64,000 bases of DNA from Sulfitobacter undariae. GTDB taxonomy: Bacteria; Pseudomonadota; Alphaproteobacteria; Rhodobacterales; Rhodobacteraceae. The notes below the pieces were generated by a model. It was not told the origin of the DNA. It did not search any database and saw nothing but the letters and a program-made list of their open reading frames with translations. The stretch's first letter is position 1, and each line of letters starts with the position of its first letter. The position numbers and the translations under genes are program-made. This document shows, in pieces, positions 3,145-20,316 of the stretch. The DNA is taken from assembly GCF_014196805.1 (NCBI RefSeq), contig NZ_JACIEI010000012.1, positions 1-64,000 on the forward strand, given 5' to 3'.

Positions 3145-3558
3145 ATGGCAGGAAATGAGGTAGCAAAGGCGGATGGTGGCAAATCTCTGTCGTTGGACAC
3201 GTCGAAAGGTCAAATTGATATCTCCGGACTGTCGGAAGAGGCGCAACAGGAATTGACAATGTATGCGGCCCGGAAGCAAATCGACCTGCAATCCGCTGCA
3301 CAGAAGTTGAGCATTGATCTGCAGGGAACGTCCTCTGCCGTGAACAACATGGCGGATGTTACCAGACGCATGACAGAGTCAGGCGATGCCAACACCACAC
3401 GGATCACACTCGAAAACAGTGCCGGAAAAACAGAAGTGATCATGGGCAACACCGACGAAGCCAAACGCGGCAATGTGGACAAGAAAAATGACACATGGAT
3501 GTATATCGTCGGCGGCATAGTAGTCTTGATGATTGTTGCATCGGTCCTTAGCAGCTAA
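3145..3558 (+). CDS. Predicted tail-anchored protein, 137 aa
   Basis: First gene of a tightly coupled four-gene operon (3145-5120). The protein has no N-terminal signal. A hydrophilic body contains a likely helical stretch (LSEEAQQELTMYAARKQIDL, then SAAQKLSID), and a single hydrophobic segment, MYIVGGIVVLMIVASVL, lies at the extreme C-terminus, so it is probably tail-anchored with its body in the cytoplasm. The start is supported by AGGAAGG about 8 bases upstream. The stop TAA shares its last base with the next ATG. The family is not recognised and the function is unknown. Confidence 0.7.
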   Translation: MAGNEVAKADGGKSLSLDTSKGQIDISGLSEEAQQELTMYAARKQIDLQSAAQKLSIDLQGTSSAVNNMADVTRRMTESGDANTTRITLENSAGKTEVIMGNTDEAKRGNVDKKNDTWMYIVGGIVVLMIVASVLSS

Positions 3559-3830
3559 TGCCAAAAACCATTTTCTTGGGCAACGGGTCCACCGCTGACG
3601 CAGTATTGGATCGACACGGGCGCTGGGCGTCCAAGCTGAACGAACAAGATGCACGGCGGCTGCGCAATGATGTCACCGATCTGGTGACGCATGGGAAGTT
3701 ACTGAGCGATCATGGTGCATCGTTCAAGAGCAAGCGGACGGTTGAATTGACTGACGCGCAGGTCGTGTTGGATGCCCGGTTTGGGGCGGTAAATCTATGG
3801 GATCGACTCTTGTTGAAGTTGAGGGCGTAG
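3558..3830 (+). CDS. Hypothetical protein, 90 aa, operon member
   Basis: Starts on the last base of the preceding stop codon (TAATG), which indicates translational coupling. The small basic protein begins MPKTIFLGNGSTADAVLD, has an RRLRNDVTDLVTHGKLL helix-like stretch, and ends VNLWDRLLLKLRA. No membrane segment or known domain is recognised. Its place between two predicted tail-anchored proteins suggests it bridges or regulates them; this is inference only. Confidence 0.6.
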   Translation: MPKTIFLGNGSTADAVLDRHGRWASKLNEQDARRLRNDVTDLVTHGKLLSDHGASFKSKRTVELTDAQVVLDARFGAVNLWDRLLLKLRA

Positions 3831-3831
3831 C

Positions 3832-4671
3832 ATGGCGGCACGGCGCAGGCGTTCAGGCTACAAAGGCAGCTATCCTACAAACTATGGTCAAGAGGCGGCA
3901 CGGCGGCACATCGCAGAGGCGGCGGAATTGTCCGAACGTCTTGGTGGTATGGACAACGAGGTGAAGGACTTTTTCTTTGGTCTCGATTCATCCCGGCTCA
4001 AAGACGTGTTCGTTGCATACGGACGCCAGTTCGGGTTCGATAAACAGGACTATGCAGAACAGACCTTCACCAAGTGGAAGGGTGGAGAACGGAAAATGAG
4101 CGGCCTTGTGGCAGGGCGATTGTTCGACCTGTTACCACCGATCATGCCAATGGACTTAAAACTACGTATTGTGGAAGGTTTGTTTGATAAGGCGGGTAAG
4201 AAGCGCACCGATCATGTCTTGGCACCGTTGACGATGCCCGCCGCACAGGTCGTGGCTTTCGTGGACCAGACGTTGTTCTCAGACTTGAGTGAGGAGGGCA
4301 TAGACGCTGGGTTGAAGCGTCAGTTCAAGTGGCTGGCAGGCGACGATGCAGCGGTGTCTGAAAAGCTGTTGAACCATTCCTTGCAGGTCACGTTCGATGC
4401 CAAGAAGGCGGCATTTTCGGCGATCATGGACCAGTTTGACCGCGAACGGGAAAACCACGCCGATACCATCACAGAGGTGGTGTCTACTATTCGTCTGCGT
4501 CAGCACGAAGTGCGGATCAAGCGGACAGACACAATTGAAGCCCCCAAGGTCGTTGACCCAATGACATTTGAGCGTGGAGGGCGTGAACCGCCCAAGGCGG
4601 ATAGTGACTACGGATGGCTGGTGTGGCTGGGGATTGGCGGGGCGGTCCTCTACTTCCTGTTTACACAGTGA
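3832..4671 (+). CDS. Predicted tail-anchored protein, 279 aa
   Basis: Begins one base after the previous stop. The N-terminus is very basic (MAARRRRSGYKGSY), the middle is a long soluble region (about residues 25-250) including FFFGLDSSRLKDVFVAYGRQFGF, and a single hydrophobic helix, YGWLVWLGIGGAVLYFLF, closes the protein. This repeats the C-terminal anchor of the 3145 gene, so the operon makes two membrane-tethered cytoplasmic proteins. No domain is recognised. The stop codon overlaps the GTG start of the nuclease gene. Function unknown. Confidence 0.65.
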   Translation: MAARRRRSGYKGSYPTNYGQEAARRHIAEAAELSERLGGMDNEVKDFFFGLDSSRLKDVFVAYGRQFGFDKQDYAEQTFTKWKGGERKMSGLVAGRLFDLLPPIMPMDLKLRIVEGLFDKAGKKRTDHVLAPLTMPAAQVVAFVDQTLFSDLSEEGIDAGLKRQFKWLAGDDAAVSEKLLNHSLQVTFDAKKAAFSAIMDQFDRERENHADTITEVVSTIRLRQHEVRIKRTDTIEAPKVVDPMTFERGGREPPKADSDYGWLVWLGIGGAVLYFLFTQ

Positions 4672-5120
4672 TTCAAAAGCGGGTTGCATGGCTGTTTGTC
4701 CCGGCAATGCTGCTAATGGTCGGCTGGGTGGCCACCGATCAGAAGGCAAACCGGGTGGTCCCTTCCATGTCCACTGTTCCGTCCACCATACGGGCGCAGG
4801 ATATAAGGGTGGTTGACGGGGACACTATTGCGCTGGGCGCTCACAACATCCGCTTGATGGGGTTTGATACGCCGGAAACGTACAGGGCGAAATGCACATT
4901 TGAGCGGAACAGAGGGGACGCCGCAACGAAGCGTCTGCGTAACCTCGTGAATGGCGCGAACACGCTTGATGTGCGCCTTACAGGACGCCGTGATAAGTTC
5001 GGGCGGGGTTTGGGTGGTCTTTATGTAGATGGGCGCGACGTGGGTGCGTTGTTGATTGAGGAAGGGCTGGCACGGCCTTATCATGGCGGAACGCGGCAAG
5101 GGTGGTGTGATGGTACGTGA
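4668..5120 (+). CDS. Staphylococcal-nuclease-like protein with N-terminal membrane segment
   Basis: The GTG at 4668 overlaps the upstream TGA (GTGA), giving 150 residues. The N-terminus KRVAWLFVPAMLLMVGWVA is a signal peptide or membrane anchor. The rest is an SNase (thermonuclease) domain: IRVVDGDTIALG, then IRLMGFDTPETY carrying the Arg and Glu expected of the active site, then the KFGRGLGGLYVDGRDVG core and LLIEEGLARPY. SNase proteins are calcium-dependent sugar-nonspecific nucleases. With two tail-anchored partners this suggests a membrane-associated nuclease module, for example cutting incoming DNA. An upstream in-frame start at 4614 is less likely because it lies deep in the previous gene. 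Confidence 0.75.
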   Translation: MIQKRVAWLFVPAMLLMVGWVATDQKANRVVPSMSTVPSTIRAQDIRVVDGDTIALGAHNIRLMGFDTPETYRAKCTFERNRGDAATKRLRNLVNGANTLDVRLTGRRDKFGRGLGGLYVDGRDVGALLIEEGLARPYHGGTRQGWCDGT

Positions 5121-5191: not shown

Positions 5192-5929
5192 ATGATGGAA
5201 AATCTCGAACAGCTTTTAAAACTACCCTACCAGACGCTTGCTATTCTGGTCGGTGGCTATCTTGCGTATCGTTTAGCCTACACTGGGCGGGACAGTACCC
5301 ATAGGACGATTGACACGGCGGCGATTGCGTTGGTGTTTGCGTTTATTGCTCAGGCGGCGTCTGCGTGGGCGCTGGTTACCTACGGTACCAGTTACCCGTC
5401 TAAGGCCAACGAAGTGCCTTTATGGTTTGGATATAGTGCAAGCATCGCCGGGATCATATTCGCGTTGATTTCCGCTGCCGTGTGGCGGCGCACCAGCGTC
5501 TCAGGCTTTGCATGGTTTCTACGCAAAACGCGGATTTCCTCATCAGACAGGCATATGGCCGCATGGGAAACCATCATTAACAAAGAAGACTCCGGGCCAT
5601 CATCTATAGCAGTGATTAGGAAAGACGGGTCAGCAGTCGCATGTGAACGATTGGACGCTTTCAAAAATGCGCCTTTTGGCCCAATGATCCAAGGTCAGGA
5701 TGGCTCAATCGCCTTGTATGTAACATCATCACGGGCTGCGGGGTCAGAAAACTGGATTGACGCTGACCCAAACTATGCAGATTGGGGGCCAGAGATAACA
5801 ATCATCCCCGCTGGGGAAGTTTCAGAGGTGCGTATCCGACACAACCCATCACTTCTTAGGCGGTGGCGGCGCAGACGGGGCGCTGGGGATGGGCCTGGCG
5901 TTGTCCGGGATGAAGACTCCACCAGCTAA
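5192..5929 (+). CDS. Three-helix membrane protein with soluble C-terminal domain
   Basis: Starts at ATG 5192 (a second ATG follows at once); the open frame extends to a TTG at 5147 without better support. Three hydrophobic segments are visible: LPYQTLAILVGGYLAYRLAY, IDTAAIALVFAFIAQAASAW and WFGYSASIAGIIFALISAAV. A cytoplasmic domain of about 130 residues follows and contains IAVIRKDGSAVACE and GQDGSIALYVTS. The last 26 residues (RRWRRRRGAGDGP region) lie antisense to the proline-rich micro-gene at 5849-5959, so the true C-terminus is coded in doubly used DNA. The family is not recognised. It lies 71 bases after the nuclease gene and may belong to the same operon. Confidence 0.65.
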   Translation: MMENLEQLLKLPYQTLAILVGGYLAYRLAYTGRDSTHRTIDTAAIALVFAFIAQAASAWALVTYGTSYPSKANEVPLWFGYSASIAGIIFALISAAVWRRTSVSGFAWFLRKTRISSSDRHMAAWETIINKEDSGPSSIAVIRKDGSAVACERLDAFKNAPFGPMIQGQDGSIALYVTSSRAAGSENWIDADPNYADWGPEITIIPAGEVSEVRIRHNPSLLRRWRRRRGAGDGPGVVRDEDSTS

Positions 5930-5959
5930 CGCTGGTTCAGTTGCTGTTTCGGTATTCAT
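5849..5959 (-). CDS. Proline-rich micro-protein E (36 aa), last of five tandem paralogues
   Basis: Starts MNTETATEPA and ends with the family tail IPSAPSAPPPPKK before TGA. It is the most divergent member: the tail is KK rather than KR, and the gap from the previous stop is 11 bases, placing the AAGAGG of the upstream stop region too far away for an ideal ribosome-binding site. It overlaps the 3' end of the rightward membrane-protein gene by 81 bases, antisense. It has no signal peptide or membrane helix. Confidence 0.6.
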   Translation of the reverse strand: MNTETATEPALAGGVFIPDNARPIPSAPSAPPPPKK

Positions 5960-5970
5960 AGTCAAGTGAT

Positions 5971-6096
5971 CTACCTCTTGGGTGGCGGCGGTGCTGTCGG
6001 GGCACTGGGCGTCGGACGGGTGTTTGTTTCAGGTATGCTTCTACCGCCACCGGGAATTGTGCGGGGTGTTGGCATCGGTGCGGGTGACTTGGCCAT
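5971..6096 (-). CDS. Proline-rich micro-protein D (41 aa)
   Basis: Reads MAKSPAPMPTPRTIPGGG and ends TPSAPTAPPPPKR before TAG. Start and stop fit the array: the stop region of member C (AAGAGGTAA) lies just upstream, and only four bases separate that TAA from this ATG. The protein is disordered and basic-proline-rich, with no Cys or Trp. The shared tail with members A, B, C and E marks it as a paralogue, not a chance frame. Confidence 0.75.
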   Translation of the reverse strand: MAKSPAPMPTPRTIPGGGRSIPETNTRPTPSAPTAPPPPKR

Positions 6097-6100
6097 GATG

Positions 6101-6223
6101 TTACCTCTTAGGTTTTGGTGGTGGCGCAGATGCTGGGGCGCTGGCAGTCGGTTGCTGCGAACGAGTTAGCGGTGTCGAAGGCCGGGATGCGGGTTTGGCA
6201 ATCGGTGCTGATTTCTGTGACAT
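6101..6223 (-). CDS. Proline-rich micro-protein C (40 aa)
   Basis: Reads MSQKSAPIAKPASRPSTPLT, then RSQQPTASAPASAPPPKPKR and TAA. The tail shares QQPTASAP with member B almost exactly. The codons for its last lysine and arginine and its stop (AAGAGGTAA) form the Shine-Dalgarno sequence for member D. Its own start lies six bases after the stop of B. No known family. Confidence 0.75.
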   Translation of the reverse strand: MSQKSAPIAKPASRPSTPLTRSQQPTASAPASAPPPKPKR

Positions 6224-6229
6224 ATGATC

Positions 6230-6382
6230 TTACCTCTTAGGCTTCGGGGGCGGCGGTGCAGTCGGTGCGCTTGCTGTTGGCTGTTGCGACCCTGTGTGCC
6301 GTGTTGAATCACGTGACGCGGGTTTTGCAGTCGGTACGATCCTGACGGTGGATTTTGATGGTGGCGTGGGCGTCTTAGCCAT
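6230..6382 (-). CDS. Proline-rich micro-protein B (50 aa)
   Basis: Reads MAKTPTPPSKSTVRIVPTAK and ends QQPTASAPTAPPPPKPKR before TAA. The N-terminus resembles member D (MAKTP versus MAKSP) and the middle KPASR motif is shared with C. The start lies six bases after the stop of member A. AAGAGGTAA at its end doubles as the ribosome-binding site of C. It is predicted to be disordered, with no signal or membrane segment. Confidence 0.75.
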   Translation of the reverse strand: MAKTPTPPSKSTVRIVPTAKPASRDSTRHTGSQQPTASAPTAPPPPKPKR

Positions 6383-6388
6383 CGGCTT

Positions 6389-6535
6389 TTACCTTTTTGG
6401 TTTCGGTGGTGGTGGCGTGGTCGGTGCGCTGGCGTGTGGTTGTTGTGAGTGAATAGAGAGGTATGGGTCGTTAGGGGGGCGTTCGCTCACTTGTGGTGCG
6501 GGCTTGGTTTCTCTGTCTCCATCGTCCTTGGGCAT
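6389..6535 (-). CDS. Proline-rich micro-protein A (48 aa), first of the array
   Basis: Reads MPKDDGDRETKPAPQVSERP and ends SAPTTPPPPKPKR before TAA. It is preceded by GAGG eight bases upstream, so the first member has a conventional ribosome-binding site within TAAGAGG, the same motif that ends the other members. It is the only member with an acidic N-terminus. Promoter candidates must lie in 6536-6861, unless transcription continues from the primase-helicase gene. Confidence 0.75.
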   Translation of the reverse strand: MPKDDGDRETKPAPQVSERPPNDPYLSIHSQQPHASAPTTPPPPKPKR

Positions 6536-6861
6536 GCTTTTTGCCTCTTAGTTGTGTATTGGGGTTAGCGTGAACATACCGCGAACCGGTGTAGTCTGCC
6601 ACACATAATATGGCAGAAATGGTTGACGGTGGTACAGGGTGCGGTACGGACAGCCAAGTGATGTTCGGGTACGTGGGCGCGGCCAATGGTGAAGGGGGGG
6701 GAAGGGGGGATGCTAATAGTATACCTTAGTGGTTGCTCTTCGTTCCCCTAAATCTGTTTGACCAAGCCTAACTACGAATCCATTCATGTTGGGGGACGCC
6801 GCAGAGCGGCGGCTTAACCGGGGCCCTGTTGATCCGATGAGTGCCGGAGGCACGATGCGGG
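6536..6861 (-). other. Intergenic region with G-tracts and two strong hairpins
   Basis: Between the primase-helicase stop and the micro-gene array. The + strand holds G8 at 6694-6701 and G6 at 6704-6709. Two perfect stem-loops follow the primase gene: GTGCC/GGCAC with a 3-base loop at 6841-6853, and CGCCGC/GCGGCG with loop AGA at 6797-6811. Neither has a T-run, so simple intrinsic termination is not clear; processing or pausing is possible. A leftward TTG-started frame (6471-6686) crosses the region but lacks the array tail and is not called. Confidence 0.5.
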
Positions 6862-9840
6862 TCAATGGTTCCCGTCAGGTAGATCATCATGATACAGGCG
6901 ATATCGGTCATGGGTCGCGCCCGTGAACAGTTTCAGATCGCGGTAGAGAGATGATTTGATGAATACCATGTGCATATCTTGTTTCTGCTCTGGTGTTGAT
7001 CTGAGCCCAAGGTTTCTCCCTAAATCCTGAAACAAGGTATCCCTCATCGCCATTGCAACAGGATCATCAAGATCGAATTTTTGACCAAGGATACAAAGCT
7101 GATCATATTCACCCAAGCTGGGATATGTGATGATAGTAGCGATGGTCATGCCCGTCAGGTCATTTCGACCACGTGCTGCCTGATGTGAACAAACTTGGTC
7201 TTCGTATTTCTTGTCGATGTTCTTCAGATTGTTGCTGATCACAAAATCGATTCCGGACTCCAGCAAGTCCTGAGCCATGTCGATTACGCTGGTGCGGCCC
7301 TTCTTGTCTGGTGCACGTGCATCTTCATCGAAATAGATAGGTACAAGCTCATTGAACAGATGTGGGGTGTTCGTGAGGTTCATTGTCCTCAGGTATTGCG
7401 ACTCTTCCCTATGAGGTTTTTGGCCAGCAGCCAGCTTGAGTTGATCTTCTGCTCGATGGGCCAATGTAATGGAGCTTGCGATGCAGCGTGGTAGGTCTTC
7501 AGTCGTCAGTATGACCACGGGACAACCAAGGTTTGACCACCAGCGGTGTTCTTTGCTGTAGTACGTACCGATACGCTGCGCGTAGATATTGATTTCATCT
7601 ACACCTTTCCCAAATGGGAACCGCTTCGCATCGACTTTCAGCTTGTCCGATTTCTGGTATCCGATCTGGTTGATCCGGTTACACTCATCGAACCCCATAG
7701 GTGGTGACATGTACCCCCCAACAACCGCGTCGAATGCCTGTACTTGGGCTGGCAGACCAGCATCCTTCCACGAACACCCTGTGGACTTCTTGGCCACTTT
7801 TGCCACCTTTTTCGCCAGTTTAACATCTTCCTTGGTGTCGATGCCGACCAAATCTTCCCACCCCACTTCATCGTATATGACTTGGTAGAGGCCCATCTCA
7901 CGTATGCAATGTTTTACCCCATCTTGGTTAAAGTCATCCGGGAAGCCTGGATGCAGGAACGCTTTGCTGATCTGTGAATGGGGCCAGTTTTTCAGCAGGC
8001 TATGAACGCAAAATACCACCGTGTGGGTCGGATCAAACATTGAATGCCCGTTAATCATCCACATTTCATCGCGGAGTTCCGTCATACGGGTGTAGACAGC
8101 AGGCTGCATTGATTTGACTGCATGGAGGAAGCTGACACTACCATTGGCCCCTGCCTGTCGTCGCTCTATCGGTTTGACGCCAAACTCATCTGCGGCTTCT
8201 TGGTAGAGCTTGCTCAATGACTTGATGACTACCGCACAGGTGTTGCCATTTTCAATTCCTATGAATTCATTGCGTTTTGCATTTGCCTGTTCATATGATT
8301 TGCAGGCGAAACATATAAAGCCTGGTATTGGCGACCACGTGTCTCCATCCCGTTGCGTGGTTCGGTGTTGGCTATCAGCTTCCCGATCCCAGCGCCGTTC
8401 CTGTACGTGTTGCATCAGTGCATAGGTCTTGCCGATACCCTCTGGTGCCTGGACCAAAGTGGTACCAGGTGCGTCAGCGACATTACGTAAGATGCCGCTA
8501 AGGTTCGCTCTGGCCGTGTCACGACTTAAAGCCTTTTCACCAAACGATGCTGAGTATTTTCGAGGTCGGTTGGATTTTGATTTTTCCGACGCAATGGGGC
8601 TAACCTGTTGTACGGCCAGGCGCTGCTCAACAATGTTCAGTGTTTCATCCAGCGTGTATCCATTCGGTAGGAACAACGGGCCGCTGTGAGCGCCGATACC
8701 TGACGGGGCAACCATTCGGTAGTCGCCACGCACAAAGGTGGTCGGATTGCCATCATTAGCATGGTTCTTGAAGAACAGGTAATTGTAAGGCTCAAGATAT
8801 TCGATCCTGGTCGGCTCAGGGTATTGGGCCCATCCACATTCGTGCAGATACCTTTTCAACTCATTGATGAATGCATCCCCACCCTTCAGCGATACCGCCC
8901 GTTTGCTCGGTCTACTCTGAGAATGTCGTTCTACCTCCATGATCGCTTTCGCTGACTTGGCCAGCATCAGCGTGTTCGTTGAGCCGGTAGGGGCACGTGA
9001 CAACATATGCTCTTGGATGACGGTCTGCTCAATGAAATCGCCTGGCTGGAACCCATGGACGTTTGGCTTTTCACCATCCTGGAACATTCTGGTTCCCCAA
9101 GGAGATCGGCGCTTTTGGATATATGATGATAGGCGTTCATCAAACTTGATGGGCACACCAAGTGACTGTTGAACGGTTGTGGCCAAATGCACCCAAGTTG
9201 ACCGGTATAGCTCATGCAGCACCTGGTCCGGTACGTCGCCTTGCCACGTGGCATTGGCCCATGCCGATTTCTTTGCTAATTCATTTGATAGGTGCCGGGT
9301 GTCGAATACCAGGTGTATGTGAAGGCTCTTGTTACCGCTGAAAACAGTGGAGTACCCTCTATAATCTTGGTATCGGGACAGTGCTGTGTGTACTTTGTGA
9401 AAATCACAAATATCACGTTTGCCAGCAAACCAATCCAACTGCGTTTCCAAAGATGCGGCATCAGGGCCATCGTGTTCAAACGTAAAAACCATCCACCCAC
9501 CATTGGTGATGCGCTGTCCGGGCGGTGTGTAGCCGGATGCCACACCGCGCTTCTTTTTTGATGGATCGTATTGAGCGAAACGAAGCGGATTGCTGAACAA
9601 TTCCGCTTCCTTCTGAATGCTATCGTTGTCGTCGCCAAATTCTTGTTTTAACTCCTCCAACGCGCTCTGACTAAAGTTGCCCATCTTGTGATAGAAATGT
9701 GGGACATGCAGGTCTTCCTTTGGCAAATAAAGGATTGGTGAAATGAATTCCTTGAACATCCTGTTGAGATGCCTGTTGCTGGCACGTTCGATTTGCCTTT
9801 GATGCTTTGGACTTATGGCTAAGTCAGATGGTTTTTTCAT
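6862..9840 (-). CDS. Primase-polymerase (AEP) / helicase-like replication protein
   Basis: This 992-residue protein appears to be the replication enzyme of the element. The N-terminal third resembles an archaeo-eukaryotic-type primase: MVFTFEHDG (E122, D124) as the metal motif, SGNKSLHIH (168-176) as the SxH nucleotide motif, and IKFDERL (D234) as the third acidic motif, with RRSPWGTRMF after it. The middle has a P-loop, APEGIGKT (465-472), and a Walker B-like VIYDEVGW near residue 680, suggesting a helicase or ATPase module. Primase-helicase fusions are typical of plasmids, phages and their satellites. The start is the ATG at 9840, next to MKKPSDLAIS; no strong Shine-Dalgarno sequence is visible. 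It is transcribed toward the micro-gene array and away from the RHH gene. Confidence 0.7.
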   Translation of the reverse strand: MKKPSDLAISPKHQRQIERASNRHLNRMFKEFISPILYLPKEDLHVPHFYHKMGNFSQSALEELKQEFGDDNDSIQKEAELFSNPLRFAQYDPSKKKRGVASGYTPPGQRITNGGWMVFTFEHDGPDAASLETQLDWFAGKRDICDFHKVHTALSRYQDYRGYSTVFSGNKSLHIHLVFDTRHLSNELAKKSAWANATWQGDVPDQVLHELYRSTWVHLATTVQQSLGVPIKFDERLSSYIQKRRSPWGTRMFQDGEKPNVHGFQPGDFIEQTVIQEHMLSRAPTGSTNTLMLAKSAKAIMEVERHSQSRPSKRAVSLKGGDAFINELKRYLHECGWAQYPEPTRIEYLEPYNYLFFKNHANDGNPTTFVRGDYRMVAPSGIGAHSGPLFLPNGYTLDETLNIVEQRLAVQQVSPIASEKSKSNRPRKYSASFGEKALSRDTARANLSGILRNVADAPGTTLVQAPEGIGKTYALMQHVQERRWDREADSQHRTTQRDGDTWSPIPGFICFACKSYEQANAKRNEFIGIENGNTCAVVIKSLSKLYQEAADEFGVKPIERRQAGANGSVSFLHAVKSMQPAVYTRMTELRDEMWMINGHSMFDPTHTVVFCVHSLLKNWPHSQISKAFLHPGFPDDFNQDGVKHCIREMGLYQVIYDEVGWEDLVGIDTKEDVKLAKKVAKVAKKSTGCSWKDAGLPAQVQAFDAVVGGYMSPPMGFDECNRINQIGYQKSDKLKVDAKRFPFGKGVDEINIYAQRIGTYYSKEHRWWSNLGCPVVILTTEDLPRCIASSITLAHRAEDQLKLAAGQKPHREESQYLRTMNLTNTPHLFNELVPIYFDEDARAPDKKGRTSVIDMAQDLLESGIDFVISNNLKNIDKKYEDQVCSHQAARGRNDLTGMTIATIITYPSLGEYDQLCILGQKFDLDDPVAMAMRDTLFQDLGRNLGLRSTPEQKQDMHMVFIKSSLYRDLKLFTGATHDRYRLYHDDLPDGNH

Positions 9841-11583: not shown

Positions 11584-12003
11584 TTGGCAATCTATCAGAC
11601 CCTTCGTATGGCACGTGAGCAGGCTGGGCTTTCCCTTGAGAAGGCGGCGGAGTGTATTGGCATCAGTGGGGCCAGCTTCTCGCGAATGGAGAATGGCCTC
11701 AGCAAGGTTTCGACTGACAGGCTGGAAATGCTTGCCAGTCTGTATCAGGTATCTGCGTCAGCCCTTATCGAGGGCAGTATCATAACCATGCCCTCCACTG
11801 TTGATCTTGATAGGATGCGGGCGGTCGTTGAGGCCGTTCAGAGGGGGGTATACAAGCTCCGTGTAAGGCCCTCATCAGAGAAGATGGGTATTGCCGTGGC
11901 AGAGGTATACCGCATGGAGATCGAGCGTATTGTGAATGATCCCAAAGCCGAATTTGATCCAACCCGATATAACAGCCTCATCGAGGCCATGTTCCGAAAG
12001 TGA
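11584..12003 (+). CDS. XRE-family regulator upstream of the type I RM operon
   Basis: A 139-residue protein with an N-terminal XRE domain: LRMAREQAGLSLEKAAECIG, then SGASFSRMENGLSKVSTDRL, and a C-terminal region with a GVYKLRVRPSSEKMG helix. The only start that keeps the first helix is TTG at 11584; no strong Shine-Dalgarno sequence is seen, which implies weak translation. The hsdM start lies five bases after the stop, so it is the first gene of the restriction operon and a likely controller of it, comparable to C proteins that time restriction expression. Confidence 0.75.
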   Translation: MAIYQTLRMAREQAGLSLEKAAECIGISGASFSRMENGLSKVSTDRLEMLASLYQVSASALIEGSIITMPSTVDLDRMRAVVEAVQRGVYKLRVRPSSEKMGIAVAEVYRMEIERIVNDPKAEFDPTRYNSLIEAMFRK

Positions 12004-12007
12004 ATAT

Positions 12008-13516
12008 ATGACGCCCGTCACCCAATCCGAGATCAACAAGGCCGCATGGGGTGCATGTGATACCTTCCGGGGTGTCGTCGATCCTTCGATCTACAAGGAT
12101 TACGTCCTGACGATGTTGTTCCTGAAGTACCTCAGTGACGTGTGGCAGGACCACATGACACGGTATCAAACTGAGCACCCCAATGCCCCAGAATTGGTAG
12201 AGGCTATGATGCAGCAGGAGGCGTTTGTTCTCCCCGATGGTGCCAGCTTCACCGCTCTGCACAAACGCCGCCATGAGCCTGGCAACGGGGAGCGGATCGA
12301 TAAGGCGCTGCATGCCATCGAAGAGGCCAACATTACCAAGCTGCGGGATGTGTTCCAGGACATCAGCTTCAACAGCAACAAGCTTGGGGATGAGGAACAG
12401 AAGAACGATATCCTGCGGCACCTGATCGAGGACTTCGCCACGGATGCATTGGACCTACGGCCCACGCGCGTGGGCCAGTTGGATATCATCGGCGGTGCCT
12501 ATGAATACCTGATTAGCCGGTTTGCGGCCACGGCGGGTAAGAAGGCAGGAGAATTCTATACACCGGCAGAGGTGTCGTCGCTGATGGCACGTCTGGTTGA
12601 TCCCCAGGAGGGGGATGACATCTGTGACCCCACATGCGGCTCTGCATCGCTGCTAATGAAGTGTGGCAGGCTGATCCGGCAGAATACGGGCACCAAACGC
12701 TACGCGCTGTTCGGGCAGGAGGCTATTGGCTCCACCTGGGCACTGGCCAAGATGAACCTGTTTCTGCACGGAGAAGAGAACCATCAAATAGAATGGGGAG
12801 ATACAATTCGGAACCCCAAGCTACGGACCAGTGATGATATGCTGCGGCACTATGATGTGGTTGTGGCCAATCCACCGTTCAGTCTGGACAAGTGGGGCAC
12901 GGAAGCTGCGGAGACAGACAAGTTTGCACGGTTCCGCCGTGGCATGCCGCCCAAGACCAAGGGCGACTATGCCTTCATCCTGCACATGATCGAGACCATG
13001 AAGCCCAAGACGGGCCGTATGGCGGTGGTGGTGCCCAATGGTGTGCTGTTCCGGGGATCGACCGAGGGTAAAATCCGGCAGAAGCTGATTGAGGAGAACC
13101 TGCTGGATGCGGTGATCGGCCTACCGGAGAAGCTATTCTTTGGGACGGGTATTCCAGCGGCGATCATGGTGTTCCGCAAATCCAAGGCTGACACATCGGT
13201 GATGTTCATTGATGCCTCACGGGAGTTCATCTCGGGCACCAACCAGAACGTGCTGGACGATACCCATCTGGAGAAGATCGTGGCGACTTACCGCGAACGG
13301 GAGACGGTGGACAAATACGCCTACCGTGCCACATGGGAAGAGATAGCAGAGAATGATTTCAACCTGAATATCTCCCGATATGTGGATACGTTTGAAGAGG
13401 AAGATGAGATCGATCTGATGGCCGTTCGTGACGAACGAAGCCGATTGAAGATCGATCTGGCCGAGTTGGAGACCCGCATGGAGGGGTACCTCCAGGAGCT
13501 TGGTTATGGTTCCTAA
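12008..13516 (+). CDS. hsdM: Type I restriction-modification DNA methyltransferase subunit
   Basis: 502 residues from ATG 12008; the frame is open further upstream, but homology begins at QSEINKAAWGACDTFRGVVD. The HsdM_N helical domain is followed by an N6-adenine methyltransferase domain with motif I DICDPTCGSASLL and catalytic motif IV VVANPPFS (NPPF). It methylates adenine within the bipartite site chosen by HsdS and forms the M2S core. It overlaps hsdS by 11 bases. The length is normal for the family, and no damage is seen. Confidence 0.95.
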   Translation: MTPVTQSEINKAAWGACDTFRGVVDPSIYKDYVLTMLFLKYLSDVWQDHMTRYQTEHPNAPELVEAMMQQEAFVLPDGASFTALHKRRHEPGNGERIDKALHAIEEANITKLRDVFQDISFNSNKLGDEEQKNDILRHLIEDFATDALDLRPTRVGQLDIIGGAYEYLISRFAATAGKKAGEFYTPAEVSSLMARLVDPQEGDDICDPTCGSASLLMKCGRLIRQNTGTKRYALFGQEAIGSTWALAKMNLFLHGEENHQIEWGDTIRNPKLRTSDDMLRHYDVVVANPPFSLDKWGTEAAETDKFARFRRGMPPKTKGDYAFILHMIETMKPKTGRMAVVVPNGVLFRGSTEGKIRQKLIEENLLDAVIGLPEKLFFGTGIPAAIMVFRKSKADTSVMFIDASREFISGTNQNVLDDTHLEKIVATYRERETVDKYAYRATWEEIAENDFNLNISRYVDTFEEEDEIDLMAVRDERSRLKIDLAELETRMEGYLQELGYGS

Positions 13517-14690
13517 CGGGTGGGAAGCATCGTCTCTTGGGGAGTGTGCAACATTCCGTTCGGGAGGAACGCCCAGTAAGCAACGACCAGAGTTTTGGGG
13601 TGGTGATGTGCCTTGGGTCTCGGCAAAAGATTTGAAGACACACCTCATCTGTACAGCAATAGATCGACTCACAGAAGTTGGTGCTCGTGGAGCTAAAATG
13701 GCTCAGCCGGATCATATTCTGATGCTGGTAAGGGGTATGACGCTTTTGAAGGATGTTCCCATAGGGTTTGTAACCAAACCCGTGGCGTTCAACCAGGACT
13801 TAAAGGCGCTGGTCGCCAATGAGAATGTTAACCCGCTATTTCTGTCGTATCTGCTGGTTGAAAAAAAGCGTGTGATGATGGGGCTGGTTAATACGGCAAA
13901 CCATGGCACAGGTAGGCTTGACACAAATCTATTAAAGGCATTGCCGATAGATATCCCGCCACTTCCCGAACAACGCAAGATCGCGGATATCCTCTCAACC
14001 TGGGACCGTGCCATCGAGACCAGTGAGGCGCTGCTGGCCACAGCCCGCACCCAGAAACGCGCCCTCATGCAGAGCCTGCTCACGGGTAAACGCCGCTTCC
14101 CGGAGTTCGAAGAGCAGGAGTGGAAAATCGGCGGGTTAGATTTATTGGCAGAAATTCACATGGGGCAAAGCCCGGCTGGTAGCACTTACAACTCGGATGG
14201 CATTGGATCGCCGTTATTGAACGGACCCACGGAGTTTACTGACCGCCACCCTGTTGCACGGCAATGGACAACAAAGCCGACCAAGATGTGCAAAGACGGG
14301 GATGTTCTAGTTTGTGTGCGAGGAAGCTCGACTGGACGCATGAATGTCGCAGATGGTGCATATTGTATCGGACGTGGTATTGCTGCTGTCCGCAAACGGA
14401 ATGGTTTGACAGATACCGTGTATCTTCAGCAATTGCTCCATTCTCTTGTAGAGTTGGTGCTCAGCCGGGCCGCCGGATCGACGTTCCCAAACATAGACAA
14501 AAAGTCGTTGAACGCGCTTCAGGTACACATCCCTACCTACGAAGCACAGAAAAGAATTGGGCTTGTTCTGGCTGATGCGGACGATGAGATCGACAGCTAT
14601 GTCGGTGATATTAAAAACCTCCATGCTGAAAAAAAGGCCCTGATGCAGCAGTTACTTACGGGCAAGCGGCGGGTGAACGTAGATGCTTAG
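13506..14690 (+). CDS. hsdS: Type I restriction-modification specificity subunit
   Basis: 394 residues from ATG 13506, preceded by AGGAG. Two target-recognition domains are visible, each followed by a conserved coiled-coil spacer: EQRKIADILSTWDRAIETSE ending LLTGKRRFPEF at about residue 200, and QKRIGLVLADADDEIDSYVG ending LLTGKRRV at the C-terminus. The matching LLTGKRR repeats are typical of the two half-subunits. The protein sets the DNA target of both modification and restriction. The DNA site cannot be deduced here. Confidence 0.95.
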   Translation: MVPNGWEASSLGECATFRSGGTPSKQRPEFWGGDVPWVSAKDLKTHLICTAIDRLTEVGARGAKMAQPDHILMLVRGMTLLKDVPIGFVTKPVAFNQDLKALVANENVNPLFLSYLLVEKKRVMMGLVNTANHGTGRLDTNLLKALPIDIPPLPEQRKIADILSTWDRAIETSEALLATARTQKRALMQSLLTGKRRFPEFEEQEWKIGGLDLLAEIHMGQSPAGSTYNSDGIGSPLLNGPTEFTDRHPVARQWTTKPTKMCKDGDVLVCVRGSSTGRMNVADGAYCIGRGIAAVRKRNGLTDTVYLQQLLHSLVELVLSRAAGSTFPNIDKKSLNALQVHIPTYEAQKRIGLVLADADDEIDSYVGDIKNLHAEKKALMQQLLTGKRRVNVDA

Positions 14691-15204
14691 TGGGTTGGCA
14701 AGAATTTCACTAACCGCCACGGCGATTGCTCCTGTCGGGTTCACCTATGCTGCTGTCGCTGCGTTGAACGACCGATACGACATCATGTTCTTTCTGCTGG
14801 CTGGGTCTCTGTTACTTGTCAGGGTTTGCGTCTGGGTTCTGAATGCCACCAAAGGCAAGAGTGCACCAGCATCTGAACGCCACAAGATCACAACGGTTGA
14901 GCCAGCCGACCGTGAAAACACAGCTATCATCCTGCTGTACCTGATGCCCTTATTTACCGCTGATTTTGACGATCTGAACTGGATGATCTGGATACCAACA
15001 TTGCTGATATTTGCTGTGATTGCCTTCACCAGCCACAGCTATTTTTTCAATCCACTACTTGGGCTCTTTGGATGGCATTTCTACAAAGTGGGAACACCTG
15101 AGGCGGTCACAAGGGTTTTGATTTCCAAGAGAACTATACGCAAAGGTAACTGCGAAATCACTGGGATCGATCTCGGTGATTATGTAATTTTAGATACGGA
15201 GTAA
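14683..15204 (+). CDS. kwaA: KwaA-like four-helix membrane protein (Kiwa defence)
   Basis: 173 residues, starting eight bases inside the end of hsdS. Four hydrophobic segments are visible: SLTATAIAPVGFTYAAVAAL, IMFFLLAGSLLLVRVCVWVL, AIILLYLMPLFTA and WMIWIPTLLIFAVIAFTS, followed by FFNPLLGLFGWHFYKVGTPE and a short soluble tail. Topology, size and position directly before a DUF4868 gene match KwaA of the Kiwa anti-phage system, in which the membrane protein senses infection and the partner acts on DNA. The call rests mainly on the pairing; on its own the protein would be only a membrane protein of unknown function. Confidence 0.7.
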   Translation: MLSGLARISLTATAIAPVGFTYAAVAALNDRYDIMFFLLAGSLLLVRVCVWVLNATKGKSAPASERHKITTVEPADRENTAIILLYLMPLFTADFDDLNWMIWIPTLLIFAVIAFTSHSYFFNPLLGLFGWHFYKVGTPEAVTRVLISKRTIRKGNCEITGIDLGDYVILDTE

Positions 15205-15207
15205 TTG

Positions 15208-16077
15208 ATGCCCAGAAGCTTTTTCGCGTTATGTCGCGTTGGTGAAGAAAACGTCGTCCGCCGGATACCTCTCCAGGCCGGAGTGCAGGCAGAGCTTGAA
15301 CAACTTTTTGATGCACAAGAGGCTGCATTTCTGAATGGTCGCGATGAAGAGGTCGTGTTTGATGGCGACTGGAAGCCTGACAGGAATCAGATCATGACTC
15401 TCCAAGATGCGGGATTGGTTCAGCCCTTTCTTGAAACGCTGGCCGATGGTCCGGCGGCATATGAGGTTTTGGATATAAGCCAGTATGGTCAGGCAGGGAT
15501 CAAGGCGGTCTTTTCCCATTCAGAGGCTCTTGAGGGTCGTGTCCTCATTCAGCGATTCAGAACATCCCAGTACCTTCAAAAAAGCGGTGTCACCCTGGTG
15601 TTCAACAACAATCGATTTGGAAAGCTGGCCAAGCAAGGTTTTGCCCTCGATGCACGTCTTACAGCTATCGTTGAAGGCGATACAGTGAAGTTCCACAGCT
15701 TCGCCAGCCTGAGAACGATCCTTACGGTCCAAGAGCATTATCACGAAGCGACCGAACAGCAGGTGATAGACTTTTCGGAACACGTGAACTTCCATATAGA
15801 AAACGCGGCCTTGTTTGATGCTGCGATGGATGAAAGGTCACGCAAGCTCATCCGGGGGATCGCGCTGTCCGACGTTTTGAATCAACATGATGTCACATCA
15901 ATTCGCGAAAAGGCCCTCAGTGTTGGTTTGGATATAGGTCTTCAGGAAGGGAAACTGGTTCTGCCAGGAGAGAAAAGAAGATTGAAGATTATCCTGAGTT
16001 TCTTGGAACAGAGCGTCTACAAAGGTGTGTTCACCGATGAAACCTTTGAAACCAATTCTAAACGTGCGGTGCAGTAG
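15208..16077 (+). CDS. kwaB: KwaB-like DUF4868 protein (Kiwa defence)
   Basis: 289 residues from ATG 15208, preceded by CGGAG; three bases separate the kwaA stop from it. The central part has the DUF4868 pattern: GVTLVFNNNRFGKLAKQGFA, then LDARLTAIVEGDTVKFHSFA and TILTVQEHYHEATEQQVIDF. DUF4868 defines KwaB, the cytoplasmic, DNA-binding partner of KwaA that blocks late phage transcription and replication. Both genes are inserted between hsdS and hsdR on the same strand with tight spacing, so the two defence systems share one transcript. A homology search would confirm the family. Confidence 0.75.
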   Translation: MPRSFFALCRVGEENVVRRIPLQAGVQAELEQLFDAQEAAFLNGRDEEVVFDGDWKPDRNQIMTLQDAGLVQPFLETLADGPAAYEVLDISQYGQAGIKAVFSHSEALEGRVLIQRFRTSQYLQKSGVTLVFNNNRFGKLAKQGFALDARLTAIVEGDTVKFHSFASLRTILTVQEHYHEATEQQVIDFSEHVNFHIENAALFDAAMDERSRKLIRGIALSDVLNQHDVTSIREKALSVGLDIGLQEGKLVLPGEKRRLKIILSFLEQSVYKGVFTDETFETNSKRAVQ

Positions 16078-16079
16078 GG

Positions 16080-19000
16080 ATGCGGCGCTCCCCTGATACC
16101 AACGAGGAAGCCGCTGCAAAGCTTCCTGCACTACATGTGTTGATGGTGATGGGATGGGAGTATGTGTCGCCTGCCGCCTGTCTTACCCTGCGAGGATCAG
16201 AGCGGTCTGTGGTGCTGGAAGATGTGCTGCGGGTATACTTGGGGCGGCATCGGTTCGAATACAAAGGTAAGAGCTTGGCGCTATCTCCCAGTGGGATGGA
16301 TCAGGTGGTTCGCGATATTACGTCAACGGGACTGTCAGAGGGTCTGCTGGCCGCGAACAAAGCGGTCTATCAGCATCTGACCCAAGGTATCACCGTGCGG
16401 GAGGTGATCGATGGTAAGCAGCACTATGTGACCGTGCCGCTAATCGACTGGCAGGATGTTACGGGCAACCGGTTCCAGGTGACCGAAGAATTGAGCGTTG
16501 AGCGTCCCGCAGGGCTTGGTCGCTTCAGGCCGGACATCGTGTGTTACGTCAACGGTCTGCCGCTGGTGGTGATCGAAGCCAAACGCCCGGTGTCATCAAC
16601 CAAGACCACCGCGATGGTGGATGAGGGGATATCACAACACTTACGCAACCAGAAAGGTGATGGCATCCAGGATTTGTATGCCTATTCCCAATTGTTGCTG
16701 TCGATCTCTGGTGTGGAGGGACGCTATGGCACCACAGATACACCCAAGAAGTTCTGGTCCAAATGGCGGGAAGAGCAGATAGGCGATGCCGAGGTCGCTG
16801 GGATCAGGGCGACGCCGCTCACAGCGGCCCAGATAGAGGCTCTGTTTAAAGATAGGCCCACGTGGGCACGGAAGGGCTATGAGGCCCTCCACAGGGGCGA
16901 TGTGCTGCCCACAGAGCAAGATTGGTTGATCATATCGCTGCTGCGGCCAGACCGGCTGCTGGAATTCATCAAACTATTCATTCTGTATGACCGAAAGACT
17001 GGCAAAATCGCAGCCCGTTACCAACAAGCGTTTGGCATCAAGTCGCTGCTGGATCGGGTATCACAAGTGCGCCCTGATGGGGGCCGTGAGGGTGGCGTGA
17101 TCTGGCACACCACCGGTAGCGGCAAGAGCAATTTGATGGTCTTCCTGTACAAGGCTTTGCTGCTTGATCCTGATCTGGCCGATTGCCGGGTGATTGTGGT
17201 GACGGATCGGGTTGATCTGGAAAAGCAGTTGTCATCGACCTTCCTGACCGGCGGTGCGTTTGGTTCAGACGTTGCCACCAAGAAGGACGGTGAGAAGGCC
17301 AAGGTGCAGTCGGGCCGTGATCTGGCCGAACGTATCGGGTCGGGCAATGAGCGGATCATCTTCACGCTCCTGCAAAAATTCAACTCGGCCACCAAGCTGC
17401 CGGAATGCCAAAACACCACTAACAAGCTCATCGTGTTGATTGATGAAGGCCACCGGAGCCAGGGCGGTGAGAACCATGAACGGATGCGTAAGGCGCTGCC
17501 CAATGCGGCTTACGTCGCTTTCACAGGCACCCCGCTGCTGAAAGATGACAAAACCCGCAACAAGTTTGGCCCCATCCTGCATGCCTATACAATGCAGAGG
17601 GCAGTCGAAGATGGCGCTGTCACACCTTTGGTTTATGAAGAACGAAGGCCGGTGGTGGATATCAATGAGGCTGCGATTGATGCCTGGTTTGACAAAATCA
17701 CTGCTGGATTGTCAGACAAGCAGCGGTCCGATCTGAAGAAGAAGTTTGCGACCCGAGGACAAATCTATGGTGCAAACAACCGGATCGAGTTGATCGCATA
17801 TGACATAGCGGTTCACTTCAATGAGAACTTCGCCAAGCTTGACCTTGGGTTGAAGGCTCAACTAGCTACTGACAGCAAAAACTCTGCGATCCGGTACAAG
17901 GCCGCGTTGGATGCCACTGGTTTGGTAACCAGCGCCGTTATCATCTCACCTCCGGACACCCGGGAAGGCCATGATGATACGGACGAGACCAAAGACCCGG
18001 AAGTTCAAGCTTGGTGGAAGGCTGCCGTTGGCAATGATCCCGATGCTTATGAAAATGGTGTGATCGAGGATTTCGGAACTGATGGGCCACCAGATATATT
18101 GATTGTGGTGGATAAGCTTCTGACGGGCTTTGATGAACCCCGCAATGCGGTGCTCTACATCGACAAGTATCTGAAGGGGCACAATCTGCTTCAGGCCATC
18201 GCTCGGGTGAACCGGCTGCATGAAGCCAAGAAGCATGGGTTCCTAATCGATTACAGAGGTATCCTTGCAGAGCTTGATACATCCATTCAGAACTATCAGG
18301 ATTTGGCGGACCAGACCCAAGGCGGCTATGACATCGGTGACTTGGTGGGGACCGTCACCAATGTCTCCATGGAGTACAAACGTTTGCCATCCCTGCATGA
18401 TGCTGTTTGGGCCATCTTCCGCGATGTTGTGAACAAACAAGACCGTGAACAGTTTAGACGGGTGCTGATGCCGGATTTTGTTGAGAATGACACGGGTGTA
18501 GCTCATGACCTTCGTCAGAAGGTGCGGGATGACTTCTACGACGCGCTGACTTCCTTCGGCATGTGCTTGAAGTTGGCGTTGTCATCGCGGTCATTCTTTG
18601 AGGATGGGGCATTCTCTGAAGCCACCATTCAAGGATACAAGCGTGACCTCAAGTTCTTCACCGAACTGCGTATTCAGGCAAAGCGCGATGCACAGGAAAC
18701 CGTAGATTTTTCAGCCTATGAAACCCAGATCAGGAACCTTGTGGACAAGCAGGTGATCGGTCAGGAGATTGTTGACCCTGAGGGCGTGATCATGATCGGT
18801 GAATTGGGTCAGAGCGACGATGTGAATGATTGGACAGATGAGAAGAAACGCACCGAAGCCGACCTTATAAAAACCCGGATACGCAAATCTATCGAACAGG
18901 AATTGATCGATGATCCGTACGCCCAACGGGTGTTTTCGGAGATGTTGAAAGAAGCCATCCGGGAGGCCGAGTCCCTGTTCGATCACCCTGATAAGCAATA

Positions 19001-19361
19001 CACCATGTTCAAAGACCTGGAGGCCATGGTCGGGGAGAGGGCCACACCGACAGTGCCGAATGGGTTTGGTGACAATAAGTTGGCCCAGGCTTTCTACGGA
19101 GCCTTCGCGATGTCACTGGATCAGGGACAGCTTGACGAACTTGGTGACACCAAACTGGTTGAAGAAGCTTTGTTCACGGATAGCGTGGTACAAGGTGCTG
19201 TACGATCCCATTCGATCAGTCCAGCCAGCATCGAAGCTGAAATCCGGAAGGCTCTGTTACCACGGCTGTTCAATCTGTTAGGTGGGCTGAACCCGGCGAA
19301 TGCCGTTATCGAACACGTTGTCTCTATCGTCCGTGCCGGTGACACAAGGCGGAATTCATGA
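16080..19361 (+). CDS. hsdR: Type I restriction endonuclease/translocase subunit
   Basis: 1093 residues. The order is the standard one for HsdR: a PD-(D/E)XK nuclease motif RFRPDIVCYVNGLPLVVIEA (about 150-170), a superfamily 2 helicase core with Walker A HTTGSGKS (near 345), DEAD-box variant IDEGHRSQ, motif III FTGTP, and motif VI AIARVNR, then a helical C-terminal domain that docks on the methylase core. It translocates and cuts unmodified DNA using ATP. The start is two bases after kwaB; the end overlaps the metallopeptidase gene by four bases. No inactivating change is seen. Confidence 0.95.
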   Translation: MRRSPDTNEEAAAKLPALHVLMVMGWEYVSPAACLTLRGSERSVVLEDVLRVYLGRHRFEYKGKSLALSPSGMDQVVRDITSTGLSEGLLAANKAVYQHLTQGITVREVIDGKQHYVTVPLIDWQDVTGNRFQVTEELSVERPAGLGRFRPDIVCYVNGLPLVVIEAKRPVSSTKTTAMVDEGISQHLRNQKGDGIQDLYAYSQLLLSISGVEGRYGTTDTPKKFWSKWREEQIGDAEVAGIRATPLTAAQIEALFKDRPTWARKGYEALHRGDVLPTEQDWLIISLLRPDRLLEFIKLFILYDRKTGKIAARYQQAFGIKSLLDRVSQVRPDGGREGGVIWHTTGSGKSNLMVFLYKALLLDPDLADCRVIVVTDRVDLEKQLSSTFLTGGAFGSDVATKKDGEKAKVQSGRDLAERIGSGNERIIFTLLQKFNSATKLPECQNTTNKLIVLIDEGHRSQGGENHERMRKALPNAAYVAFTGTPLLKDDKTRNKFGPILHAYTMQRAVEDGAVTPLVYEERRPVVDINEAAIDAWFDKITAGLSDKQRSDLKKKFATRGQIYGANNRIELIAYDIAVHFNENFAKLDLGLKAQLATDSKNSAIRYKAALDATGLVTSAVIISPPDTREGHDDTDETKDPEVQAWWKAAVGNDPDAYENGVIEDFGTDGPPDILIVVDKLLTGFDEPRNAVLYIDKYLKGHNLLQAIARVNRLHEAKKHGFLIDYRGILAELDTSIQNYQDLADQTQGGYDIGDLVGTVTNVSMEYKRLPSLHDAVWAIFRDVVNKQDREQFRRVLMPDFVENDTGVAHDLRQKVRDDFYDALTSFGMCLKLALSSRSFFEDGAFSEATIQGYKRDLKFFTELRIQAKRDAQETVDFSAYETQIRNLVDKQVIGQEIVDPEGVIMIGELGQSDDVNDWTDEKKRTEADLIKTRIRKSIEQELIDDPYAQRVFSEMLKEAIREAESLFDHPDKQYTMFKDLEAMVGERATPTVPNGFGDNKLAQAFYGAFAMSLDQGQLDELGDTKLVEEALFTDSVVQGAVRSHSISPASIEAEIRKALLPRLFNLLGGLNPANAVIEHVVSIVRAGDTRRNS

Positions 19362-20089
19362 GCCCCAAGCACATCCTGGCCTATGGTGATGAGCGGATAC
19401 CCTACGAGGTCAAGTTTGACCCAAGCAGAAAGACCCGCATCGCCATCCATGTTGAACCCGATGGCAGCGTCATCGTGGATGCCCCAAGTGACCAGCCCGA
19501 CGAGATGATCCAGAAGGCGGTTCACAAACGTTCACGCTGGATCATGGATCATGTCGCTGAAGCGCGGGATCGTTTCAGTCACGTCCGGCCAAAGGCATAC
19601 GTATCCGGTGAGGAAGTCCTCTATCTGGGGCGGCGGTATATGTTGAAGGTGGTCCAGGATGACGCCGCAACCGGCACTGCACGGCTGCGAGGAAACCGCC
19701 TGGAGATTTCAACCAAATTTACTGACGCTGGCAAGGTCAGAGGTATTGTTAGGGCTTGGTATCGTCTGCGGGCACGTGACTACTTCGCCAAGCTCATCGA
19801 TAAGCAGTCTGCTGCGCTCCCATGGATTGCCCAGGCACCACCGTTCAGGATGCTGGAGATGACACGACAATGGGGTAGCTGCTCACCACAGGGGCAGGTG
19901 ATCCTTAACCCGCACCTGATCAAAGCGCCCCGGGCCTGCATCGAATACGTTATCATTCATGAATTGGCCCACCTGAAGCACCACGACCATAGTCCTGAAT
20001 TCTTTGATTTGGTGGGGCGGCATGCTCCTGGTTGGGAGAAGCCCAAGAAGCTGCTGGATGGTATGGTCGAGGTTTTGGTGAATGATTGA
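19358..20089 (+). CDS. DUF45 / YgjP-type zinc metallopeptidase
   Basis: 243 residues, ATG overlapping the hsdR stop (ATGA). The C-terminal half carries the zincin motif HELAHLKHHDHSPEF: two His and a Glu, with a third zinc ligand downstream. RQWGSCSPQGQVILNP precedes it, as in the YgjP/SprT-like family. These genes are frequent companions of hsdR and may protect against or turn over the restriction enzyme or DNA-protein crosslinks; the specific role is inferred. It is the last gene of the defence operon, and 227 bases separate it from the next likely gene. Confidence 0.85.
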   Translation: MSPKHILAYGDERIPYEVKFDPSRKTRIAIHVEPDGSVIVDAPSDQPDEMIQKAVHKRSRWIMDHVAEARDRFSHVRPKAYVSGEEVLYLGRRYMLKVVQDDAATGTARLRGNRLEISTKFTDAGKVRGIVRAWYRLRARDYFAKLIDKQSAALPWIAQAPPFRMLEMTRQWGSCSPQGQVILNPHLIKAPRACIEYVIIHELAHLKHHDHSPEFFDLVGRHAPGWEKPKKLLDGMVEVLVND

Positions 20090-20316
20090 TGGGTAGTGAG
20101 CATTAATGAAAATGGCGAAACTTTGGTTTCGACCCTTGAAACTTGCCACAAGCTCCCCCACCTAAAACTCGTAAACTGTGATGTTCCCTTGCTTAGACGA
20201 CCAGTCAGAGCCGAACCACAGATAGGTCAAATATCGTATATTCAACGCATTTGCGCTGAGCCTATTTGTGCGCTTCTTTAACTGGTCCTGAGGGTGGAAA
20301 ACTCAGCCCCAAGTAT

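Follow-up and report, generated by a model that had tools for sequence, protein, structure and literature searches.

We describe an array of five tandem micro-genes, A to E, on the minus strand at positions 5849-6535 of a 64,000-nucleotide (nt) stretch of Sulfitobacter undariae DNA (contig NZ_JACIEI010000012.1, hereafter the window), whose peptides end in a common tail. In the reading that we favour, with slightly better than an even chance of being right, they are translationally coupled, multi-copy micro-protein ligands of a DUF6338-type membrane protein, as part of a module that occasionally has anti-phage genes as neighbours. The original prediction had described five leftward frames in tandem with a shared tail, and all of them are present. 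The features on which the argument rests are the following (lengths in amino acids, aa).

6389..6535, minus strand: micro-gene A, 48 aa, tail SAPTTPPPPKPKR, with orthologs in three further lineages (alignment A2)
6230..6382, minus strand: micro-gene B, 50 aa, tail SAPTAPPPPKPKR
6101..6223, minus strand: micro-gene C, 40 aa, tail SAPASAPPPKPKR, not in the Alexandriicola array
5971..6096, minus strand: micro-gene D, 41 aa, NTRPTPSAPTAPPPPKR
5849..5965, minus strand: micro-gene E, 38 aa from TTG, NARPIPSAPSAPPPPKK, the final gene, with terminus AAG AAG TGA
6544..6547, minus strand: GAGG, probable Shine-Dalgarno sequence of the first gene A, 8 nt 5' of its ATG, read from the sequence
6389..6394, minus strand: AGG-TAA, last Arg codon and stop of A, Shine-Dalgarno sequence for B
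6230..6235, minus strand: AGG-TAA, Shine-Dalgarno sequence for C
6101..6106, minus strand: AGG-TAA, Shine-Dalgarno sequence for D
5971..5976, minus strand: AGG-TAG, Shine-Dalgarno sequence for E (TTG start)
5195..5929, plus strand: membrane-protein gene convergent to the array, a divergent relative of DUF6338; 244 aa when read from ATG 5195, in a frame open from 5147; its membrane helices were recognised by eye
5849..5929, unstranded: tail-to-tail overlap of 81 nt between E and the membrane-protein gene, coding for a basic C-terminal extension of the membrane protein

That these five frames are genuine protein genes seems to us close to certain, judging from their conservation. One-to-one orthologous arrays are found on plasmid CP081163.1 (A-E), in strain CCMM004 (L007, A-E) and in Alexandriicola marinus (L008, A, B, D and E). 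The array is thus present in four distinct lineages including that of the window, all of them Rhodobacterales and one spread over several near-identical replicons, with five genes in two of the three other lineages and four in the third. A blastn search of 72,556 plasmids matched the single record CP081163.1, with A to E in the same order, and the convergent membrane protein, used as a query against 394 genomes of the family, gave 10 matches including its own and led to the two further arrays L007 and L008. A search of genome contigs for the DNA pattern of the tail returned 11 stretches, five with the array (L016, L017, L022, L023 and L026) and six without it; the peptides of L016, L023 and L026 are alike, and so nearly are those of L017, which is cut at its end.

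Over the six pairs of lineages, the ratio of nonsynonymous to synonymous differences per site (pN/pS) is 0.21-0.45 for A-D, with a pS of 0.63-0.83, and falls to 0.04-0.23 in the last 12 residues; these are simple Nei-Gojobori counts without correction for multiple hits, and pS is near saturation. The codon-level check proposed in the original prediction therefore came out in favour of the frames: by these counts A-D are protein genes under purifying selection, with the tail as their most constrained part. E has a lower pS (0.40-0.57) and a higher pN/pS (0.37-0.71), as is expected because it overlaps the membrane-protein gene in antisense, over 81 nt in the window and 84 nt in all three of the others. 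We also observed that the basic C-terminal extension encoded by this overlap belongs to the membrane protein of all four arrays and is absent in five distant relatives (alignment A5). The tandem-repeat search of the window gave no rows and the tails vary synonymously, so what is conserved is the peptide and not a DNA-level repeat or iteron. We likewise set aside an RNA element, as Rfam at gathering scores matches only two tRNAs in the window.

A phage origin of the array was considered and rejected, since the single match among 50,697 phage records is a plasmid-like one. This record (L078, PP438431.1), named Synechococcus phage Ssp-JY41, carries an A, B, D, E array split across both of its ends, and its A, B and D peptides are the same as in Alexandriicola. 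It also encodes ParA and a RepA-like initiator and seems to be a Rhodobacterales plasmid.

The second line of evidence concerns the way in which the genes are joined. The gaps in the window are 6, 6, 4 and 5 nt, and range from 2 to 8 nt across the four arrays. The first three had been given correctly before; the fourth had been put at 11 nt, which is the distance to a downstream ATG. The most likely start of E is TTG 5965, given that E begins 4-5 nt past the stop of D in the three other arrays, and the D-E gap is therefore 5 nt. The last sense codon of the genes that are followed by another one is AGG in 14 of 15 cases in the four arrays, and CGC in the remaining one (A of CCMM004, where the gap is 2 nt), whereas E, the last gene, ends in AAG in all four. 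AGG is otherwise a minor codon, with 5.7% of 1607 Arg codons in the long frames of the window contig, 8.1, 8.5 and 9.8% in those of the other three replicons, and 5 of the 44 internal Arg codons of the micro-genes themselves. Such a distribution fits selection for a Shine-Dalgarno sequence and not for the amino acid alone, and we consider it very probable that the terminal AGG has been selected to act as ribosome-binding site for the gene that follows. The earlier idea that the tail codons double in this way is thus upheld, except that it had been restricted to A-C: D also has the arrangement, at the last of the four junctions. Comparable designs appear in genomes of a family (f178) in which L112 has AGGAGG within the last codons of one gene and an overlapping start of the next, and L120 an ATGA overlap between genes. 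We take f178 to be Pseudomonadaceae because L120 fits a locus of Pseudomonas stutzeri. In the terminal AGG a single codon serves both the end of a peptide and the start of the following gene, and as a natural example of such double use it is a clean one. As for signals outside the coding frames, positions 5600-7000 gave no promoter-like site (0.8 in shuffles) and three terminator-like sites (1.1 in shuffles).

It had been proposed that the poly-proline makes for coupled translation through stalling sensitive to elongation factor P (EF-P). As a rival explanation, this would mean that a pause before the stop regulates the next initiation and that the peptides themselves matter little. The array has the right parts for this: in all 19 array peptides the eight residues before the stop include three or four prolines, the gaps are short with a Shine-Dalgarno sequence supplied by the tail codons, and an ATG closely follows several of the phage-contig proteins that share the tail. 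But poly-proline is not limited to genes with another one downstream. The Pro-rich basic tail is kept in E in all four arrays and in modules that we take to have one micro-gene only (e.g. L094-L097, ...APPPKKP), which disfavours stalling as the selected feature. Besides, some relatives (L106 and L107) end without PPP, tails are conserved as amino acids through synonymous change, and, by geometrical reasoning only, a ribosome halted at the prolines would mask the Shine-Dalgarno sequence that follows. We regard this explanation as quite unlikely.

The third line of evidence is the partner gene. The original prediction had proposed to look for recurrence of the array near primase-helicase genes, but the 992-aa gene in question matches only its own genome (1 of 295 genomes of the family) and none of the 72,556 plasmids. 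The gene that does recur beside the array is the convergent one at 5195-5929. Its product, taken as the 260-aa frame, matches phrog_12870 (2.6e-35), and would be a divergent relative of DUF6338 (PF19865) by way of a distant homolog, L013, which is found with the window protein as a query (6.2e-20) and scores 27.5 bits against a cut-off of 26.5. It was correct that A-E belong to no recognised family, with no Pfam or NCBIfam match (nor, for A and B, any in PHROGs), but the DUF6338-type partner had been overlooked. NCBIfam also gave no match for the membrane protein of the window, for one DUF6338 protein or for the micro-proteins of three relatives.

Among the nine other matches of the membrane-protein query, two have an array, and six (L009-L014) have a small gene in convergent orientation whose product is disordered by composition and whose stop lies within 8 nt of that of the membrane-protein gene; the ninth, the fragment L015, was not judged. 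A convergent micro-gene ending at the stop (-10 to +10 nt) is thus found in six of six distant loci and for 2 of 135 control genes; with a wider interval (-100 to +10) and the four arrays added, the same rule gives 10 of 10 and 5 of 135. The small genes of L009-L014 were chosen, among several loosely filtered open reading frames (ORFs) per locus, for ending at this stop, and the uniform rule serves as the control for that choice. In the window the micro-gene lies directly at the 3' end of the membrane-protein gene, which E overlaps. L010 has three small genes in tandem, with tails KPQPKD, KPQPKD and KPKEKD. No relative was found when genome contigs were scanned with the window membrane protein, nor when viral contigs were scanned with the proteins of L009, L011 and L068. 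On the gene-neighbourhood evidence, here and in what follows, the micro-proteins probably have a functional partnership with the membrane protein. The stretch before the membrane-protein gene, positions 3145-5120, holds an SNase-domain gene and small co-directional genes without a Pfam match, two of which end in apparent membrane helices.

The association extends well beyond this clade. PF19865 matches occur in 12 of 240 genomes of the class (E up to 0.001, nine above the cut-off), 18 of 398 of the phylum (E up to 1e-6) and 20 of 298 of family f178 (E up to 1e-10), samples that overlap slightly, as well as on 14 plasmid records and in 14 IMG/VR contigs; DUF6338 is also present in Haloferax volcanii. 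An adjacent micro-gene on the same strand accompanies 52 of 66 DUF6338 loci (by set, 20/25, 6/8, 14/14 and 12/19) against 4 of 169 control genes taken from these loci, although the 66 loci are related and not phylogenetically independent, so that a p-value overstates the contrast. The rule asks for 25-100 aa, a limited content of hydrophobic residues and Arg and a start no more than 60 nt from the end of the gene, and accepts any in-frame start. The count does not include L073 and L086, which lack a frame of suitable size, L055-L057, which fall short of the cut-off, L058, L059 and L077, which are weak or second pieces, and five of the 14 plasmid records. The seven f178 loci that miss have Pro-rich small frames in the same place, narrowly outside the rule, and a stricter first count gave 16 of 33 against 0 of 75 and 0 of 140. 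Tandem arrays recur, with four genes in L112, three in L080, L092 and L120, and two in L082, L085, L047 and L049, while further loosely filtered ORFs in L093 and L098-L101 were judged spurious. Several arrays combine a common tail with differing N-termini, and the tail differs from locus to locus, from which we infer that it is a docking piece matched to the membrane protein of its own locus. Taken together, these loci would make up a widespread and almost undescribed module, in which a small DUF6338-type membrane protein is accompanied by one to five micro-proteins.

The motif of the window clade is present in all 19 array peptides and in 9 of 17 f178 peptides, against a mean of 0.20 in shuffles, none of 2000 of which reaches nine. 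The pattern was written after viewing both sets, which makes this a support and not a blind test, and the 17 come from 20 rows (one of the two from L109, the fourth from L120 and that from L121 being omitted), several of them read from an internal start. A Streptomyces micro-gene between a DUF6338 and a CHAT gene (L083:2827-2973) keeps RGYTPK, so that the GYxP motif seen in other loci extends to Actinomycetota.

The same tail (e.g. PKASAPTSPPPPKPKR) also ends proteins on phage contigs (L029:1658-3046, L030, L027, L035, L038, L124, L125, L127 and L034), one of the ORFs being small and membrane-like. These give some ground to the idea that the tail serves generally as a C-terminal tag, for docking or stability, that a common host factor reads, its proximity to DUF6338 reflecting nothing but shared mobile cargo: it is found on a 462-aa protein beside a terminase-like gene (L029 and L030, functions judged by eye), on a 60-aa phage-contig protein (L027, L035 and L038) and on a 23-aa peptide (L124, L125 and L127). 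Adjacency to DUF6338-type genes is nevertheless far over the control and persists when the orientation changes, and we hold a general tag to be improbable, on a par with EF-P-dependent coupling.

Two other explanations accept the partnership and read it differently. The membrane protein could be a toxin and the micro-proteins, intrinsically disordered by composition and presumably unstable, antitoxins in excess that are lost when a phage shuts off the host. The tight pairing in either orientation and the mobile contexts (plasmids and proviral contigs) would agree with this, as would the report from P. stutzeri in which the peptides are well detected and, in the part of it that we draw on, the DUF6338 protein by no peptide (PMC10433244). 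However, the toxicity of the membrane protein is putative, several divergent antitoxins for one toxin would be unusual, and the proposal overlaps with the ligand reading itself; we think it rather unlikely. The second explanation is that of secreted, antimicrobial or ribosome-acting peptides, of the kind of proline-rich antimicrobial peptides (PrAMPs), with the membrane protein in export or immunity. The peptides are Pro-rich and cationic, and E contains VYIPDNARPIP in two arrays, which we take to resemble PrAMPs of the apidaecin type. Judged by eye, with no predictor run, the peptides have no apparent signal sequence, and canonical relatives have GYQP repeats and in some cases acidic ends (PPGEE, PPGDE). 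Even though antimicrobial roles are mentioned by the authors of the P. stutzeri report (PMC10433244), we find this the least probable of the alternatives, and very unlikely.

Returning to the micro-proteins as ligands, their possible role is hinted at by the neighbours of the module. L079 has TIR and caspase genes downstream and Tn7-like genes upstream, L080 an E1/JAB neighbour, L083 the CHAT gene, and L103, from an E. coli strain, TIR and SIR2 genes, while L004 has a CapP-like protease upstream of the array. In L046 (1313-3344) a reverse transcriptase (RT), a DUF6338 gene and a GYQP micro-gene stand in a row, the RT scoring 157 bits with a generic RT model and 148 bits with RT_UG17, the second-best PADLOC match. 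The window has type I restriction-modification genes; they lie within 11936-22151, a segment that also has a YgjP-like protease and a large serine recombinase, the frame of the latter extending into a tRNA-Met gene (22075-22151), and that is probably the boundary of a genomic island. The link to anti-phage genes is suggestive only, and we would rate the proposal that the micro-proteins are ligands of an anti-phage membrane effector as possible but somewhat below even.

A mechanism can be outlined on this basis. The five genes would be read from one mRNA, the Shine-Dalgarno sequences in the terminal codons coupling the output of A-E. The motif and tail, [N/S]x[R/Q]P...PPPPK[R/K], would dock each peptide on the C-terminal soluble domain of the membrane protein, and the divergent N-termini may give each its own partner or role. 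The docked peptides could then restrain a membrane effector or set it off, with phage defence as the probable setting. All steps after translation, binding and function among them, are extrapolated from the genes. A bolder version, to which we give a small chance, is that DUF6338-type proteins and their arrays form an unrecognised anti-phage system: the N-termini would act as separate sensors or baits, the common tail would plug into a single membrane effector, and new array members would arise as copies of the plug with a changed sensor, being kept in step by the ribosome-binding sites within the plug.

Several results weigh against the reading that we favour. The window membrane protein has no match to PF19865 at E up to 10, hence none above the gathering cut-off, and its tie to DUF6338 through L013 is indirect. 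A search of PDB sequences gave three matches at E around 0.5 for alignment A5 and none for A7. The micro-genes of canonical DUF6338 loci lie on the strand of the membrane-protein gene, but those of the window clade are convergent, in the four arrays as in the six judged relatives, and so stand outside its operon. Fourteen of the 66 DUF6338 loci fail the adjacency rule, and the relatedness of these loci has to be kept in mind. No DUF6338 gene was recognised near the tail-bearing phage-contig proteins, whose neighbours were given no family search, and the partner of the tail may therefore be something else. PADLOC matched none of the DUF6338-type proteins tested except L014, weakly (E 0.016), and among 46 neighbour proteins (of 52, from 19 chosen loci) no PADLOC family matches more than two, so that the defence neighbours are scattered and do not form a fixed system.

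Micro-proteins of this size are usually missed by annotation, and here a whole class of them can be found through the partner gene, in contexts that include plasmids, proviral contigs and islands, sometimes with defence genes. In our literature search the term DUF6338 was found in one paper only, and among the papers listed no other one bore on coupled Pro-rich micro-genes, defence micro-proteins, EF-P coupling or the short-ORF-encoded peptides (SEPs) of P. stutzeri.

Of the systems to which the array can be compared, DUF6338 (PF19865) loci of Acinetobacter, Proteus, E. coli and other bacteria have GYQP-repeat micro-proteins that are likewise disordered by composition, with PPxK-type ends, and sometimes tandem with a common tail; they differ in their motif (GYxP, where the window has NxRP or SQQP), in lying on the same strand, and in having a partner annotated as DUF6338, their micro-proteins being annotated as hypothetical only. 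In DRT10, according to the part of its description used here, the UG17 reverse transcriptase needs a SLATT membrane protein for defence (PMC12632851). L046 is similar in that its RT lies 11 nt upstream of DUF6338 and the micro-gene, which puts DUF6338 in the place that SLATT has beside UG17 and would fit a membrane effector. In contrast to DRT10, the window module has no RT, and its part in defence is putative.

The closest parallel is P. stutzeri ATCC 14405, in which direct-sequencing mass spectrometry detected three Pro-rich proteins of less than 50 aa, with 44-114 spectra, whose genes form a predicted operon with that of a DUF6338 protein (Meier-Credo et al., 2023, PMC10433244); among the loci considered here, it is for P. 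stutzeri only that the peptides are reported to be made in the cell. L120 is very likely this locus or a close copy, with DUF6338 in frame +3 and peptides in frames +1, +1 and +3, a gene number and frames that agree with the figure legend of that report. Its peptides end in NVRPAMAPTAPPPPKK, TNIRPAQPPKAPPPPPKRDSK and TSQRPSAPPSAPPPPPKKGG, to be compared with NTRPTPSAPTAPPPPKR of the window, and share the NxRP...APPPPK motif with the window array. Both loci thus have tandem Pro-rich micro-genes of less than 50 aa beside a DUF6338-type membrane-protein gene. They differ in that P. stutzeri has three, on the strand of DUF6338, and the window has five, convergent to a divergent DUF6338 relative and with the Shine-Dalgarno sequence inside Lys-Arg-stop. 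In the sections of the report consulted, its authors describe the proteins as species-specific and possibly de novo genes. The de novo suggestion now receives another reading, since these peptides have relatives in other bacteria and look like one case of a widespread module.

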